Shown: positions 3,697 through 47,521 of the stretch, piece after piece
Layout of the letters: each line of letters begins with the position of its first letter
How positions within the stretch are numbered: the stretch's first letter is position 1
DNA from: Pseudomonadales bacterium
GTDB lineage: Bacteria > Pseudomonadota > Gammaproteobacteria > Pseudomonadales > Azotimanducaceae
Assembly: GCA_019090385.1 (NCBI GenBank)
Contig: JAHRWB010000071.1
Span: 1-50,276 of the forward strand
Direction of reading: 5' to 3'
DNA: 50,276 nt
Notes under the pieces: generated by a model
The model's database searches: none
Seen by the model: only the letters and a program-made list of their open reading frames with translations
Told to the model about the DNA's origin: nothing
Translations under genes and position numbers: made by a program

Positions 3697-4140
3697 ATGG
3701 CTAAAGCCAAAAAAGCAGCTTCCGACTCTCCATTTCGAAATTTCACACCTTATACTGCGAAAAAGAATGAAGAGTATATGAATTCCAAGCAATTGGTGCA
3801 TTTCCAGGACATTCTTTTAGCCTGGCGCCAAGAGCTTATGGAAGAAGTAGATAGAACCGTTCACCATATGCAAGACGAAGCTGCTAACTTCCCTGACCCC
3901 GCAGATCGGGCAACCCAGGAAGAAGAGTTCAGCATAGAATTGCGCACCCGGGACAGAGAGCGCAAATTGATACAAAAAATCAATAAGACGATGGAGCTTA
4001 TTGAACAAGAAGATTACGGTTTTTGTGACACCTGTGGTGTGGAAATTGGCCTGCTGAGACTTGAAGCGCGACCAACTGCAACATCCTGCGTGGACTGCAA
4101 AACCCTCTCAGAAATCAGAGAACGGCAAATCCACGGCTAA
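3697..4140 (+). CDS. dksA: RNA polymerase-binding transcription factor DksA
   Basis: A 147-residue protein with a long coiled coil, an acidic tip motif (DPADRAT) that enters the RNA polymerase secondary channel, and a C4 zinc finger with Cys110, Cys113, Cys131 and Cys134. DksA works with ppGpp in the stringent response, repressing rRNA and activating amino-acid promoters. Length and all four Cys match the canonical, zinc-containing form. Upstream of gluQRS with 42 bases between, the arrangement found in enterobacteria and Pseudomonas. Confidence 0.97.
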
Positions 4141-4182: not shown

Positions 4183-4186
4183 ATGA
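4163..4186 (+). CDS. Candidate seven-residue leader peptide coupled to gluQRS
   Basis: ATG at 4163 is preceded by a GAGGG Shine-Dalgarno (4151-4155) at 7 nt spacing and opens a frame coding MQYADCP. Its TGA stop (4184-4186) overlaps the ATG of gluQRS (4183-4185) as ATGA. gluQRS itself has no other Shine-Dalgarno in range, so termination-reinitiation from this mini-ORF is an attractive way to translate it. The leader includes a Tyr TAC and an Asp GAC codon, both read by queuosine-containing tRNAs. Function is inferred only. Confidence 0.4.
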   Translation: MQYADCP

Positions 4187-5118
4187 TCACTTACACCGGA
4201 CGATTTGCACCCACACCCTCGGGGCCACTGCATCAGGGTTCATTGCTAACCGCTTTGGCCAGTTATCTTGATGCCCGTGCAAATAAGGGCAACTGGCTAG
4301 TACGCGTAGATGATCTGGATACGCCAAGAAACCAACCCGGTGCTACCGACCTGATCCTCTCAAGTCTGGAACGTCACGGACTACTCTGGGACGGTGAAAT
4401 TTTATACCAGAGCAGCCGTATAGATGCCTACCAAACTGCACTTTCGAAGCTGATAGAAACCCAACGAGTATTTTTCTGCAACTGTAGCCGCAAGTTGCTA
4501 CAAGGCACCAGCATTTACCCAGGTACCTGCCGTAAAAATACCATACCAGCCTTTGAAAACCTGGCCCTGAACACCAAAAACTCAGGCGCATTGCGTATCC
4601 AGGTCAAGCATGCCGATATCCACTTAAACGACCTTATTCAGGGACATTCCAAATGTACGCTGCGACAAGACGGCGGCGACTTTATCGTATTTCGCAGAGA
4701 CGGTATCTATAGCTACCACTTATGCACTGTCATCGATGACAGTTACCAGGGTATTAGCCACGTCATCAGAGGTGCGGATTTACTCGAAAGCACTGCACAG
4801 CAAATCTATCTGTCGCAATTAATGGGCATAAGCCCACCAATTTATGCTCACATCCCGGTGATCATCGATGATCGCGGGCACAAATTGAGCAAACACAGTC
4901 AACCACAATCTATAGACGATAGCCCGCCTGTGGACAATCTATTTGATTGTCTTGTCAGACTAGGACAAAACCCACCAATGCATCTACAATATCAATCAGT
5001 AACATCCGTACTACAATGGGGTGTCGATAACTGGCAAATCAATTTGATTCCTGCTATTAAACACTATTCATACCAGCCCTTAGCAAAAAGGCAGCGTAGT
5101 AAGATGCACGATGACTAA
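4183..5118 (+). CDS. gluQRS: Glutamyl-Q tRNA(Asp) synthetase
   Basis: A 311-residue truncated glutamyl-tRNA synthetase paralogue that glutamylates the queuosine base at position 34 of tRNA-Asp. Seen: the Rossmann start GRFAPTPSGPLHQGS with a HIGH-like HQGS (17-20), the RVDDLDTPR motif, putative zinc ligands Cys99, Cys101, Tyr112 and Cys116, and KLSKH (234-238) in place of KMSKS. The anticodon-binding domain is absent, as expected for the family. The ATG is coupled to an upstream seven-codon frame. The 3' end overlaps the following regulator by 8 bases, so the two are co-translated. Confidence 0.94.
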   Translation: MITYTGRFAPTPSGPLHQGSLLTALASYLDARANKGNWLVRVDDLDTPRNQPGATDLILSSLERHGLLWDGEILYQSSRIDAYQTALSKLIETQRVFFCNCSRKLLQGTSIYPGTCRKNTIPAFENLALNTKNSGALRIQVKHADIHLNDLIQGHSKCTLRQDGGDFIVFRRDGIYSYHLCTVIDDSYQGISHVIRGADLLESTAQQIYLSQLMGISPPIYAHIPVIIDDRGHKLSKHSQPQSIDDSPPVDNLFDCLVRLGQNPPMHLQYQSVTSVLQWGVDNWQINLIPAIKHYSYQPLAKRQRSKMHDD

Positions 5119-6457
5119 GGTACTCTTGATTGAACCGGACTCCGAGCGACAGGAGTCCCTACGGGATCTGTTGCAGAATCATGGTTATGCCGTTGAATGC
5201 CGTGCTGGGATTTCCACCGAGACGATTGCTGCACAGGTAATCCTTTGTCCCGCAGAACTTGCCGAAGAAAAAGTACAGCTACTCAATTTTAAAGAACGTC
5301 CCACTATTTTATTTAGTCAGACAGCGGATATCAGAAAAGCTGTTGCTTCCATTCGCGAAGGCGCAGCAGACTATCTCATTTACCCCTTTTTACCCGATGA
5401 ACTTATTGCTGCAGTGGAACGTGCCCTGGAAGCCACAGTGCGACACGAGACACTGAGTATTACTGATCAAAGTGCGTTTTATCCCATGCTGGGCCGCTGC
5501 GAGCCAATGCTGGCTCTTTTTAAGCACATTAATAAAGTCGCACCTACTGATTCTACTGTGCTCATCAGAGGCGAATCCGGTACCGGTAAAGAACTCGTTG
5601 CGCGGGCAATTCATATTCTCAGCGCTCGAGAAAATGCGCCTCTAATCAGCCTCAACTGTGCTGCGATTCCCGATACCTTGATTGAATCAGAATTATTTGG
5701 CCACGAACGAGGCGCCTTCACCGGTGCCACGACCACGCGAAGCGGCTTGATAGAATCAGCAGACAACGGAACGCTTTTTCTTGACGAAATCGGCGAATTA
5801 CCCGTCGAAGCTCAGGCACGATTACTGCGCGTATTACAAGAAGGTGAAATTCGTCGCGTCGGGTCTACCAAAACACGTAAGGTCAACATCCGCCTGATAG
5901 CTGCAACGCATCGGGACCTCAAAGCCCTAACCGGGACCGGGCAATTCCGAGAAGACTTGTATTACAGACTAAATGTAGTGGCCTTGACTGCACCACCACT
6001 CCGAGAAAGAGGCGAAGATATCGCAGATCTCGCCAATTATTTCTTAGACAAAATTTGTAAGACTCTCAACCGGCCACTCATGTCTCTCTCATCAGAGGCG
6101 CTCAATCTCATTTCTACCTATCACTGGCCAGGTAATGTCAGGGAATTGGAAAATGCTATAGAACGCGCGGTCATACTATGCGACCACAATGTAATTGAAG
6201 CAGAAGCTCTGGCAATCGACCACCATCTGTCATTGGTAAAACCAAAAACCCAGGCGCCCCTGACAGAGGCAAAAACCTCGCAGACTAGCCTGGAAGACTA
6301 TTTTGTCGCATTTGTGTTGGAGCACCAGGATCAAAATACCGAAACCGAACTCGCACACAAACTCGGCATCAGCCGAAAAAGTTTATGGGAAAGACGCCAA
6401 CGTTTGGGTATTCCTCGAACAAAAACACACCGTAAGGCCATTAGACGGGATCAGTGA
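5111..6457 (+). CDS. Sigma-54 activator, CbrB-like, with degenerate receiver domain
   Basis: A 448-residue NtrC-class protein. Domains: receiver-like 1-105; AAA+ sigma-54 interaction domain about 125-360 with Walker A GESGTGK (154-160), an intact GAFTGA loop (201-206), Walker B LFLDE (222-226), and REDLYYRLN; C-terminal Fis-type helix-turn-helix ending LGISRKSLWERRQRLGI. The position between gluQRS and pcnB is that of cbrB in Pseudomonas. The receiver is broken: where the phosphoacceptor Asp is expected there is VILCPAEL (Pro47), and the conserved Lys of the K-P-F motif is Tyr91 (YLIYPF). No sensor kinase gene (cbrA) is adjacent. It overlaps gluQRS by 8 bases. It should still activate sigma-54 promoters, probably without phosphorylation by a kinase; the nearest such promoter is immediately downstream. 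Confidence 0.9.
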   Translation: MTKVLLIEPDSERQESLRDLLQNHGYAVECRAGISTETIAAQVILCPAELAEEKVQLLNFKERPTILFSQTADIRKAVASIREGAADYLIYPFLPDELIAAVERALEATVRHETLSITDQSAFYPMLGRCEPMLALFKHINKVAPTDSTVLIRGESGTGKELVARAIHILSARENAPLISLNCAAIPDTLIESELFGHERGAFTGATTTRSGLIESADNGTLFLDEIGELPVEAQARLLRVLQEGEIRRVGSTKTRKVNIRLIAATHRDLKALTGTGQFREDLYYRLNVVALTAPPLRERGEDIADLANYFLDKICKTLNRPLMSLSSEALNLISTYHWPGNVRELENAIERAVILCDHNVIEAEALAIDHHLSLVKPKTQAPLTEAKTSQTSLEDYFVAFVLEHQDQNTETELAHKLGISRKSLWERRQRLGIPRTKTHRKAIRRDQ

Positions 6458-6472
6458 TCTGCCGGGCACTGT

Positions 6473-6534
6473 AAAGTGTTACCCAAATACACCATGCGGT
6501 AACACTTTCGGGTCATTGAGTAACTACTGTTACA
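6473..6534 (+). promoter_or_regulatory. Cluster of TGTTAC half sites, likely activator (UAS) sites
   Basis: An 11-bp perfect inverted repeat, AAAGTGTTACC (6473-6483) and GGTAACACTTT (6498-6508), is followed by a second, GTAAC-TACT-GTTAC (6520-6533). That makes four TGTTAC/GTAACA-type half sites within 62 bases, ending about 50 bases upstream of a sigma-54 promoter. This is the usual distance for enhancer sites of NtrC-type activators. The adjacent activator gene is the obvious candidate binder. The first repeat has no U-tract after it, so it is a poor terminator. Confidence 0.65.
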
Positions 6535-6585: not shown

Positions 6586-6601
6586 TGGCATGAAACGTGC
6601 T
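6586..6601 (+). promoter_or_regulatory. Sigma-54 (-24/-12) promoter
   Basis: TGGCA (6586-6590) and GTGCT (6597-6601) place GG and GC exactly 10 nt apart, the invariant GG-N10-GC geometry of RpoN promoters, with good flanking matches to TGGCAY-N5-TTGCW. The predicted start is near 6611-6613. It is preceded by palindromic activator-like sites and a sigma-54 activator gene, and followed by a terminated non-coding stretch. Confidence 0.82.
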
Positions 6602-6611
6602 TTAGTTAACA

Positions 6612-6758
6612 GTAATAATAAAAATAGGTTGATGTTTGCAGGGGAGGGGTCTCAACCTGGGTTGTCCCAGGCTGCAAATACAGAGAGTCGGTAAGTAAAA
6701 TAACAATAAGCTACTGACGAACTGTTATAAAGGGAAAAGCACAGCTTTTCCCTTTTTT
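6612..6758 (+). ncRNA. CrcZ-like small RNA
   Basis: About 145 nt from the predicted sigma-54 start to an intrinsic terminator, with no credible ORF. Two A-rich motifs fit the AAYAAYAA pattern bound by the Hfq distal face (with Crc): AATAATAA at 6614-6621, near the 5' end, and a longer AAYAAYAAYAA run at 6699-6709. Between them is a stem-loop: TTTGCAG (6635-6641) pairs with CTGCAAA (6672-6678), enclosing CCTGGG (6656-6661) paired with CCCAGG (6666-6671) over a UUGU loop. In Pseudomonas, crcZ lies between cbrB and pcnB, is transcribed from a sigma-54 promoter activated by CbrB, and sequesters Hfq/Crc to relieve catabolite repression. Position, promoter type and motifs match, but this RNA is much shorter than the roughly 400-nt Pseudomonas RNA. 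Homology is inferred from layout, not alignment. Confidence 0.75.
6729..6758 (+). terminator. Rho-independent terminator of the small RNA
   Basis: AAAGGGAAAAGC (6729-6740), loop ACA, and GCTTTTCCCTTT (6744-6755) form a 12-bp stem running into six T residues (6753-6758). A textbook intrinsic terminator, 36 bases upstream of the likely pcnB ATG. Confidence 0.93.
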
Positions 6759-6794: not shown

Positions 6795-8138
6795 ATGCAG
6801 GCAACCAAAGCCTTGTCGAATAATTTATCTGCCATAGCGCAAAGTGATGCCGTTCTATTATCTGCTTCAGAGCATAAAATCGACTCTGCGGACATAGACG
6901 ACAGTGCTATACAGGTTGTTGAAACATTAGCCACTGCCGGCTATGAAGTATTTTTGGTTGGTGGTTGTGTCAGAGACTTGTTGCTTAAACGACAACCAAA
7001 GGATTTCGACGTCGCCACCAATGCAACGCCCGAGCAAATCAACCAGTTATTTCGACGTTCTCGTATTATCGGCAGACGTTTTCGCATTGTGCATGTGAGA
7101 TTTAAGCGTGAAATAATTGAGGTCTCCACCTTCCGGCGGGCGGTAGATAAAGAAGATATCTCTCTGGCTCATTCCAGAAAAGATCTATCAGGAAAAGTAT
7201 CCGCGCAATCCAGTAAAGGCGTTATGTTGCGAGACAATGCATACGGCTCTCTGAATGAAGATGTATTTCGCCGCGATTTCACGGTTAACGCACTGTATTA
7301 CGACCCTCTTTCAGGAACACTAATCGATCACGTCAAAGGCATGCAGGATTTAGATGCTGGCGTACTGCGAATTATAGGTAATGCCGAACAACGGTACCGC
7401 GAAGATCCTGGCCGCATGTTACGCGCAGTCCGCTTTTCTGCAAAACTCGGGTTTGAGCTGGACAATGACAGTTCACAAGCCATTCATCATACCGCCGAGC
7501 TCATCGGCGAAGTATCGCCTGCACGCTTGTTTGATGAACTCTCAAAAATGTTCCTAAGCGGAAATGCTGAAAAAATATGGGAGTTATTAGTACATTACAA
7601 TCTTGCATCATTACTTTTTCCGTCGGTCAGTGATGATCACAGCATGATTATTGAGAGCATGCGTTCTACAGACACCCGAATCAGCGCTGAAAAACCGGTC
7701 ACACCAGGTTTTATCTACGGTGTACTACTATGGTCTGCTCTACAACGACGAACCCAATCACACAGCGCAAATATGAGCGTCCCCCAGGCACGAGAAACTG
7801 CCGCTGCCGAGGTCATTGCCGAGCAGCAACCCAATATATCCATTCCCAAACGTTTTACTCAATTCATTCGAGACGTTTGGCGACTGCAACCTAAATTGGA
7901 AAAACGCCAATCTCGACAAATTGAGCGCACTCTGGGAGATCGCAGATTTCGAGCCGCATACGACTTTTTGCTAATGCGCTGCAGTGCTGGCGAACTACCG
8001 TCTGAACTCGCTGACTGGTGGACTCGTATACAGGAAGTCGATAGTGACGAGAGAGCGCAAATGATCAGAGATCAACAAACCAGGGGAAATAAAAACCCCA
8101 AAAGAAAGAAAAAAAAGCCTTCTAGGCCGCAACCGTAG
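6795..8138 (+). CDS. pcnB: Poly(A) polymerase I
   Basis: About 447 residues. The class II nucleotidyltransferase signature VFLVGGCVRDLLL followed by PKDFDVATNATPEQ carries the catalytic Asp pair, and REDPGRMLRAVRFSAKLGF is the RNA-binding neck typical of PcnB and CCA-adding enzymes. The C-terminus is a strongly basic tail (PKRKKKKPSRPQ), a mark of poly(A) polymerase rather than CCA transferase. PcnB adds 3' poly(A) tails that promote RNA decay. A GTG at 6765 is also in frame but lies 6 bases after the sRNA terminator tract; the ATG at 6795 is preferred. Neither start has a strong Shine-Dalgarno. With a terminator just upstream, it must rely on read-through or an unseen promoter. folK, which follows pcnB in Pseudomonas, is missing. 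Confidence 0.94.
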   Translation: MQATKALSNNLSAIAQSDAVLLSASEHKIDSADIDDSAIQVVETLATAGYEVFLVGGCVRDLLLKRQPKDFDVATNATPEQINQLFRRSRIIGRRFRIVHVRFKREIIEVSTFRRAVDKEDISLAHSRKDLSGKVSAQSSKGVMLRDNAYGSLNEDVFRRDFTVNALYYDPLSGTLIDHVKGMQDLDAGVLRIIGNAEQRYREDPGRMLRAVRFSAKLGFELDNDSSQAIHHTAELIGEVSPARLFDELSKMFLSGNAEKIWELLVHYNLASLLFPSVSDDHSMIIESMRSTDTRISAEKPVTPGFIYGVLLWSALQRRTQSHSANMSVPQARETAAAEVIAEQQPNISIPKRFTQFIRDVWRLQPKLEKRQSRQIERTLGDRRFRAAYDFLLMRCSAGELPSELADWWTRIQEVDSDERAQMIRDQQTRGNKNPKRKKKKPSRPQP

Positions 8139-14813: not shown

Positions 14814-15083
14814 CTAACGTCTTAATTCCAACTGCTTAATCAAAGCAGCATATCTCGAAGCATCTTTAATCTTCACATAATCAAGTAGCTTTCTTCTTTG
14901 GCTAACCATCCGAATCAATCCACGACGCGAATGGTGATCTTTTTTATTAGCCCTAAAGTGACTTTGCAATCCATTTATATTTGCTGTTAACAATGCTACT
15001 TGAACTTCAGGAGAACCAGTGTCACCCTCGGATTGTTGATACTCTGCAACTATTTTTGCTTTCTCTTCTGCTGATAAAGCCAT
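14814..15083 (-). CDS. rpsO: Ribosomal protein S15
   Basis: An 89-residue protein with the complete S15 signature ([49 protein letters not shown]). It binds 16S rRNA early in 30S assembly. GGAG lies 9 bases before the ATG. The 77-base gap from truB has, on this strand, an AACAG...CTGTT inverted repeat followed by a T-rich stretch, perhaps a weak terminator, but it is not convincing enough to list separately. Confidence 0.98.
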
Positions 15084-15160
15084 TATTTACATCTCCAATA
15101 TGCTAATTAAAAAAATTGAACAGATAGCCGCGCATACGTACAGCCACCTGTTTTTTTGCA

Positions 15161-47163: not shown

Positions 47164-47521
47164 GGGGGCGATCTGGATTCGACGGCGGTCATGAGACCAA
47201 AGGTGCATGCCGAGAGGGTAGTAACTCTCGTAAAACAATTACTGTAACTTTTATAGTTGCCAACGACGAAAACTACGCACTAGCAGCATAAACCCTGCTT
47301 GCCTCGATGAATCTCTGCCTGTGGGTTGAAGTCGAGGGCTCGTTTCACAGGACCGCGACCAAGGCCTCGCCCGGGGCACAAGGCGCTAAAAAGAATCGGG
47401 ATCGCTGCGAACACCCTGCCTGTCGGGTCGTGAAGCGGCTAAATCAATTGACAGAACTAAGCATGTAGATCCGATGGAGGATTACTGGCGGACGCGGGTT
47501 CAATTCCCGCCGCCTCCACCA
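47164..47521 (+). ncRNA. ssrA: Transfer-messenger RNA (tmRNA)
   Basis: A 358-nt one-piece tmRNA. The 5' end GGGGGCG pairs with CGCCTCC before the ACCA 3' end (one G-U); the 3' tRNA-like part has GGGTTCAATTCCC as T arm. The tag reading frame (47259-47291) codes ANDENYALAA followed by TAA, identical to the E. coli tag. It rescues stalled ribosomes with SmpB and adds a degradation tag. The 3' end is the insertion site of the mobile element that follows and is kept intact by it. Confidence 0.98.
47495..47521 (+). other. Probable left attachment site (attL) in the ssrA 3' end
   Basis: The T-arm and acceptor region of ssrA is a common target of tyrosine integrases. Phage-type rep, xis and int genes begin directly after it. 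The matching right copy is beyond the window, so the exact core cannot be set. Confidence 0.6.

Follow-up and report, generated by a model that had tools for sequence, protein, structure and literature searches.

The stretch of DNA analysed here, 50,276 nucleotides in length and referred to below as the window, holds a predicted small RNA of about 148 nt between the gene of a CbrB-like sigma-54 activator and pcnB. We consider it probable, if well short of certain, that this RNA is a CbrB/sigma-54-activated, Hfq-binding decoy, CrcZ-like in its action but rewired. A CbrB-like, RpoN-dependent activator would bind TGTTAC/GTAACA and switch on a short terminated RNA. Through two (ARN)n platforms, one with n=6 and the other with n=4, and through its U-rich 3' end, this RNA would engage Hfq and compete with mRNAs for the Hfq distal face, as CrcZ does in Pseudomonas. 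With a decayed receiver and no kinase found, the input to this unit would no longer be phosphorylation by CbrA; with no Crc found, its output would probably be Hfq alone. A 49-nt GGGGAGGGG junction would form an added, strongly constrained module. In excerpts of the study on P. aeruginosa (PMC4063720), CrcZ is described as an RNA of 407 nt with six A-rich stretches, rather than the five given in the preliminary description of the window, which serves as an Hfq decoy via (ARN)n repeats and relieves Hfq-repressed mRNAs.

Locus, promoter and predicted RNA

The gene order of the window, dksA, gluQRS, activator, predicted RNA and pcnB, is that of Pseudomonas fildesensis, Gilvimarinus and Dasania without cbrA; in P. 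fildesensis, two Gilvimarinus genomes and one Dasania genome it runs dksA, gluQRS, cbrA, cbrB, CA-rich RNA, pcnB. As gluQRS overlaps the activator gene, no space is left between the two and cbrA is thus missing at the window locus. Sequence comparison supports orthology of this locus with the crcZ locus of Pseudomonas, and the crcZ-like position between a sigma-54 activator and pcnB, already remarked upon in the preliminary description, was confirmed. The window's genus is represented here by two genomes, the window's own and that of one sister species (L004), with which the features of the locus were compared.

3697..4140, plus strand: dksA, syntenic marker (Pfam DksA_N and zf-dskA_traR)
4183..5118, plus strand: gluQRS, syntenic marker (Pfam tRNA-synt_1c), overlapping the 5' end of the activator gene
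5111..6457, plus strand: CbrB-like sigma-54 activator gene (Pfam Sigma54_activat), receiver decayed and probably unphosphorylatable
6477..6504, plus strand: CbrB-type upstream activator site, TGTTAC at 6477-6482 and GTAACA at 6499-6504, aligned in L004
6528..6533, plus strand: third CbrB-type half-site, TGTTAC, 58 bases before the promoter start, inexact in L004
6556..6568, minus strand: weak IHF-consensus-like site between the activator sites and the promoter
6586..6601, plus strand: sigma-54 (-24/-12) promoter, TGGCATGAAACGTGCT, with GG at 6587-6588, N10 and GC at 6599-6600, kept in L004
6611..6758, plus strand: predicted small RNA, about 148 nt, from fold z and alignment with L004
6611..6628, plus strand: Hfq distal-face-type run (ARN)6, predicted unpaired
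6635..6683, plus strand: 49-nt G-rich block, no base differing in L004, predicted to form a three-way junction
6641..6649, plus strand: GGGGAGGGG element, common to the window RNA and a second (G-type) RNA type of the family
6699..6710, plus strand: second Hfq-type run (ARN)4, predicted hairpin loop with its last base paired
6729..6758, plus strand: intrinsic terminator, 12-bp stem (pairs 6729-6755) followed by a T tract, hairpin matched in L004
6765..8138, plus strand: pcnB, poly(A) polymerase (NCBIfam TIGR01942, 464.5 bits against a cutoff of 305.65), of which the real start may be the ATG at 6795

The GG-N10-GC promoter proposed earlier was recovered as the sole exact match of TGGCAYRN4KTGCW within the window, and in the whole genome (G000) the sigma-54 pattern gave 17 matches against one for the reversed pattern. 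These 17 strict matches are, in their own right, candidates for the RpoN regulon of this genome. The RNA would start 11-12 nt downstream of the -12 element, which places the paired TGTTAC/GTAACA sites about 107 to 134 bases upstream of the start. The IHF-like site was one of 7 such matches in the window against 3.1 expected, so that it is suggestive by its position only. In P. putida, TGTTAC/GTAACA are the CbrB subsites according to the excerpted text of PMC6296734; the window thus carries a sigma-54 promoter with CbrB subsites upstream. A TGTTAC..GTAACA pair was found at 2 places in the window's own genome against 12 for the reversed control pattern, and as the control was the commoner, this count shows rarity and not enrichment. 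The other pair was considered as a second copy and rejected, as it lies inside a coding frame.

The two A-rich Hfq-type motifs of the preliminary description were found again, as AANAANAA at 6614-6624 and 6699-6709 and as the runs (ARN)6 and (ARN)4. When the RNA was shuffled 5000 times with its dinucleotide content kept, two clusters holding four motifs within 148 nt arose twice; the same arrangement was present in 11 of the 10026 overlapping windows of that length across the 50 kb. The structured core that had been put forward held up, the RNA folding at -49.3 kcal/mol (z -4.81, to which the terminator adds) with none of 200 shuffles equally good, and so did the 12-bp intrinsic terminator, which, because the scan found one against 0.4 expected by chance, counts just jointly with the matching hairpin in L004. 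The promoter and the paired activator sites were kept in both species of the genus, the activators of which are 72% identical, and so were the two A-rich runs, the terminator hairpin and the 49-nt block; the sequence between these elements had diverged. Promoter, sites and motifs were conserved in many further relatives as well.

The covariance comparison with Rfam, proposed along with the crcZ-like identity, went against a simple match: the window was left unmatched by the CrcZ model (RF01675) at its gathering score, and the model was also absent among permissive matches in the gap. As a positive control, the model recovered CrcZ between cbrB and pcnB of P. fildesensis (L108) at 349.6 bits, and it left the Gilvimarinus and Dasania loci (L109, L110 and L112) unmatched. 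No Rfam family matched at its gathering score in 20 relative loci, which included seven of the 12 G-type loci described below. Weak permissive matches to miRNA types, DapZ, STnc320, the hairpin ribozyme and CsrC were dismissed as chance. Two other RNAs were seen in the window, a ribosomal S15 leader (15027-15151, minus strand; RF00114, 56.3 bits) and a tmRNA (47164-47521) with the tag ANDENYALAA.

Activator, kinase and partner proteins

The window activator gave no Pfam Response_reg match at E<=0.001. Its phospho-acceptor D is replaced by P, its conserved K by Y, and its acidic pair reads EP; the L004 activator gave a partial Response_reg match below the cutoff, and the G038 protein and P. fildesensis CbrB scored 79.4 and 82.8 bits, respectively. 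The AAA+ core and the C-terminal end of the activator were conserved in 12 orthologues. The protein thus has the sigma-54 AAA+ domain and the CbrB-type C-terminal end at a conserved locus, and lacks a phosphorylatable receiver. Since the receiver residues were lost and the AAA+ core kept, the activator most likely works independently of phosphorylation.

This loss was set against the presence or absence of CbrA. The phosphorylation residues (D, K and the acidic pair) were kept in 15 of 15 activators with CbrA in the same genome and in 4 of 84 without it, a table from which L030 was dropped as truncated. A full-length CbrA query from G038 (987 aa, 43% identical to the P. fildesensis copy) found matches in 18 of 150 family genomes and none in the genome of the window or of its sister, so that control by a CbrA-CbrB two-component system is not in evidence here. 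Three points are additions to the preliminary description: the CbrB-type half-sites, the missing cbrA and the decay of the receiver.

Hfq and RpoN are both present in the window's genome. Crc was not found in it, and as this is a draft of 229 contigs (completeness 99.35), its absence is not proof. The lone Crc-like gene found in the genome is of the nuclease type with catalytic residues intact; its protein is 29% identical to P. fildesensis Crc, and its closest solved relative is an exodeoxyribonuclease (E 2.9e-89, against 9.1e-31 for Crc). Thus, of the Hfq/Crc pair upon which CrcZ acts, Hfq alone was recovered. Across the family, 101 of 150 genomes gave Crc matches at E<=1e-12. Catalytic residues were inspected in the six best family matches and in the window's genus, and in these six all nuclease residues were kept, unlike in P. 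fildesensis Crc. The best family match, in G023 (46% identical, residues intact), could be a Crc-like protein. Gilvimarinus and Dasania have Crc-like proteins in which the nuclease residues are lost.

RNA types and the G-rich block

One hundred loci of the family were read. There were 104 places that scored above the first second-copy match, of which G073, G097, G098 and G148 were omitted; in the remaining 46 of the 150 genomes, matches were weaker or lacking. The 100 loci fell into 23 CA-rich loci (type A), 12 G-type loci (type B, promoter present and at most one CA motif in the RNA), the two loci of the window's genus and 63 without recognisable RNA. The types were defined by promoter and CA motifs, GGGGAGGG was noticed during typing, and the loci are related, so their counts are not independent. 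L043 was entered as type n in the receiver table and as type A in the half-site, tree, CA-motif and (ARN)n counts.

CA motifs in sense and antisense numbered 206/13 in 20 CA-rich loci, 10/0 in the window's genus and 7/5 in the 12 G-type loci, where one was found in seven loci and none in five, a number not above the antisense level. Runs of (ARN)n with n at least 4 were distributed 56/1 in the 20 CA-rich loci and 4/0 in the window's genus; both counts cover 20 of the 23 CA-rich loci, L021, L026 and L027 being absent. The CA-rich loci thus average 2.8 runs (56 in 20, with 200 nt scanned) and P. fildesensis CrcZ has six, and two runs are also found in L051 and L054, both CA-rich. A strict promoter was present at 18 of 23 CA-rich, 12 of 12 G-type and both window-genus loci; the promoters of L029 and L030 score just lower, and L021, L026 and L027 gave none.

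Upstream of the RNA, perfect CbrB half-sites numbered 5 against 0.17 expected at the two window-genus loci, 40 against 2.78 at the 23 CA-rich loci (L010 and L029 had none) and 41 against 0.98 at the 12 G-type loci, as compared with 1 against 2.04 at the 63 loci without recognisable RNA, expectations being taken from mononucleotide shuffles and half-sites scored after the RNA types had been set. The half-sites are hence missing where the RNA is missing. At the 63 RNA-less loci (for example L017, L018, L022 and L032) the activator is kept, its receiver is decayed in most and the adjacent half-sites are gone. One of them, L097, has a promoter-like match, and pcnB lies behind cbrB in 57; L024, L042, L063, L076, L097 and L099 had no pcnB match in the stretch read, some of them possibly being cut. 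At L016, a stretch in the gap after cbrB is flanked by inverted GTGTCCCGTCCCATAAAT copies and resembles a small inserted element.

A FastTree phylogeny of the activators without their receivers showed two clades, one of the CA-rich loci together with L024 and L042 (support 0.96), the other of the G-type loci, the window-genus loci and the remaining RNA-less loci (support 0.83), inner supports being mixed. L024 and L042, which have CbrA in their genomes, lie in or beside the CA-rich clade. Genomes of 14 of the 23 CA-rich loci have CbrA, and nine loci gave no CbrA match. The window's genus falls within the activator clade in which most loci are without RNA and without CbrB sites.

The block at 6635-6683 is the longest exact stretch common to both species of the genus, which the A-rich runs are not, and because it is the longest exactly conserved part of the RNA it may be the site of a selected function. 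GGGGAGGG was present in 12 of 12 G-type loci, both window-genus loci and none of the 20 CA-rich loci scored, and CA runs and GGGGAGGGG occurred together in the window's genus alone (2 loci). Across the order, the promoter combined with GGGGAGGG gave 13 matches in 12 of 390 genomes against 6 for the reversed control; three, each from the window's family (G000, G019 and G035), adjoin cbrB and pcnB, and the remaining ten, with neither cbrB nor pcnB in the fetched stretch, look like chance. A role of GGGGAGGGG as the ribosome site of a small peptide was rejected, no fitting start codon being seen by eye in the window's genus. The G-type bodies measure 331-408 or 287-288 nt, with L062 at 366 and L006 at 156, and differ between genera; among four G-type RNAs of one genus, 4 of 94 predicted pairs were changed on both sides. 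At G-type loci such as L041, L044-L046, L008, L009, L011, L012, L014 and L015, GGGGGGAGGG was found in structured RNAs of about 280-410 nt, and the G-type RNAs are possibly an undescribed RNA class.

Alternative readings and known systems

With two A-rich runs against six in CrcZ, the window RNA would be a weaker sponge. As the G-type relatives keep the promoter and activator sites with CA motifs at the antisense level, Hfq titration is not the constant task of the locus. A second activity of the window RNA is plausible, given that its runs number just two and that exact conservation reaches further in the G-rich block. It could thus be envisaged that the RNA is mainly a base-pairing or protein-binding one, in which the A-rich runs load Hfq and the 49-nt GGGGAGGGG junction does the work, acting on mRNAs or on another protein; we judge this unlikely, though it deserves serious attention. 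It would account for a 49-nt block that is the longest exact stretch common with the sister species, for GGGGAGGG in all 12 G-type RNAs though their bodies differ between genera, and for the retention of promoter and activator sites by RNAs with one or no CA motif. The preliminary description had likewise suggested pairing of GGGGAGGGG with C/U-rich targets, which found no support: exact CCCCTCCC was not enriched over the reversed control in the two genus genomes (25+12 against 19+14, and 24+19 against 28+16), and of its 37 and 43 places, RNA loci included, solely the RNA locus was common to both species when all places were compared as exact 8-mers with 450-base flanks, a comparison that imperfect pairing would escape. 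Moreover, part of the G-rich element is paired in the predicted folds.

Two further readings carry far less weight. That the RNA is a sigma-54-dependent leader with a terminator attenuating the downstream pcnB is suggested by the terminator end, which precedes the first possible pcnB start by about 10 bases and the ATG at 6795 by 40, and by L054, where the RNA likewise ends near the pcnB match; however, the RNAs of several CA-rich loci (among them L010, L025 and L038) end, by eye, about 200-450 bases before the pcnB match, and 57 loci retain pcnB without a recognisable RNA, which makes such a leader very improbable. Slightly less credible still is a functionless crcZ remnant decaying towards loss. 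The genus does fall within an activator clade mostly devoid of RNA and CbrB sites, but promoter, paired sites, A-rich runs, 49-nt block and terminator were all kept between species whose activators are 72% identical and whose intervening sequence has diverged.

The Hfq-binding decoy therefore remains the reading that we prefer. We infer that the RNA is transcribed, that it binds and titrates Hfq and that it has a physiological role, which may be the role in catabolite control put forward in the preliminary description. The CrcZ-like identity given there stands as regards the locus, the promoter and the CbrB-type sites, and as regards the (ARN)n runs in that they are sense-only, though two in number against six. 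It does not stand as that of a simply shortened CrcZ: neither CbrA nor Crc was found, the phosphorylation residues are gone, and exact conservation extends furthest over a G-rich block of which GGGGAGGG is missing from all 20 CA-rich loci scored. More tentatively, and with considerable doubt on our part, loss of the kinase may have turned a CrcZ-type Hfq decoy under a two-component system into an RNA with a structured GGGGAGGGG module as its essential part, with the window's genus, in which both are present, as a surviving intermediate and the activator as a phosphorylation-independent, nearly single-target switch. If true, a protein-sponge RNA was converted at this locus into another kind of regulator.

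The CbrAB system is called unique to Pseudomonadaceae in the excerpted text of a review (PMC8871633), and in that of a research paper, with crcZ adjoining (PMC6296734); the sections seen of a preprint on CbrA (PMC13022988) refer to Pseudomonas. The matches listed in our literature search, which reached few subscription journals, included no paper on such RNAs in Cellvibrio, Saccharophagus or Marinobacter, nor in Gilvimarinus, Halieaceae or Cellvibrionales. The present comparison places the unit beyond Pseudomonadaceae, in Gilvimarinus, Dasania and the window's family, with pieces lost in a telling pattern. These loci offer a natural series for the role of the RNA without Crc, the replacement of a kinase signal and the gain of a new domain by an Hfq sponge, and suggest how a carbon-control circuit can be rewired in evolution.

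Named crcZ-type loci were taken as the six best among the matches listed, and in four of them (L108, L109, L110 and L112) a CA-rich RNA lies in the cbrB-pcnB gap. L107 (Gammaproteobacteria 42_54_T18) showed no CA array in the 334 bases up to the contig end, and at L111 (an uncultured Pseudomonadaceae) cbrA and cbrB are present, with neither a CA array nor a pcnB match following them. The cbrB-pcnB gap of L112 (Dasania sp. GY-MA-18) holds two short CA-rich RNAs in tandem, unmatched in Rfam. As read by eye, each of the two has a sigma-54 promoter, TGTTAC/GTAACA sites and a near-terminal hairpin.

Compared with CrcZ (RF01675; Pseudomonas and Azotobacter, with CrcY/CrcX), the window RNA has the same position between cbrB and pcnB, a sigma-54 promoter, CbrB half-sites upstream and sense-strand (ARN)n runs. 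In contrast to CrcZ, it measures about 148 and not 407 nt, has two A-rich runs and not six, carries a 49-nt G-rich junction and has no Rfam match; neither CbrA nor Crc was found, and the activator has a decayed receiver. With the CA-rich RNAs of Gilvimarinus, Dasania and the 23 family loci it has in common the locus, the promoter, the CbrB-type sites and the CA motifs. These loci, however, have 5 to 20 CA motifs each, with GGGGAGGG in 0 of 20, as against four motifs and GGGGAGGG in the window RNA, and unlike the window, the named Gilvimarinus and Dasania genomes and those of 14 of the 23 CA-rich family loci have CbrA. The 12 G-type RNAs (about 150-400 nt) resemble the window RNA in locus, sigma-54 promoter, CbrB-type sites, GGGGAGGG, terminator hairpin and the lack of a CbrA match, but differ from it in having one or no CA motif and, in 11 of 12 loci, longer structured bodies, and apart from the G-rich element no common stretch was noticed. 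The regulators titrated by RsmY/RsmZ and CsrB/CsrC are RsmA/CsrA, bound at GGA motifs, and not Hfq. By analogy, these RNAs are likewise regulated RNAs that titrate an RNA-binding regulator, and a comparison of CrcZ with these sponge RNAs is drawn in the excerpts of PMC4063720.
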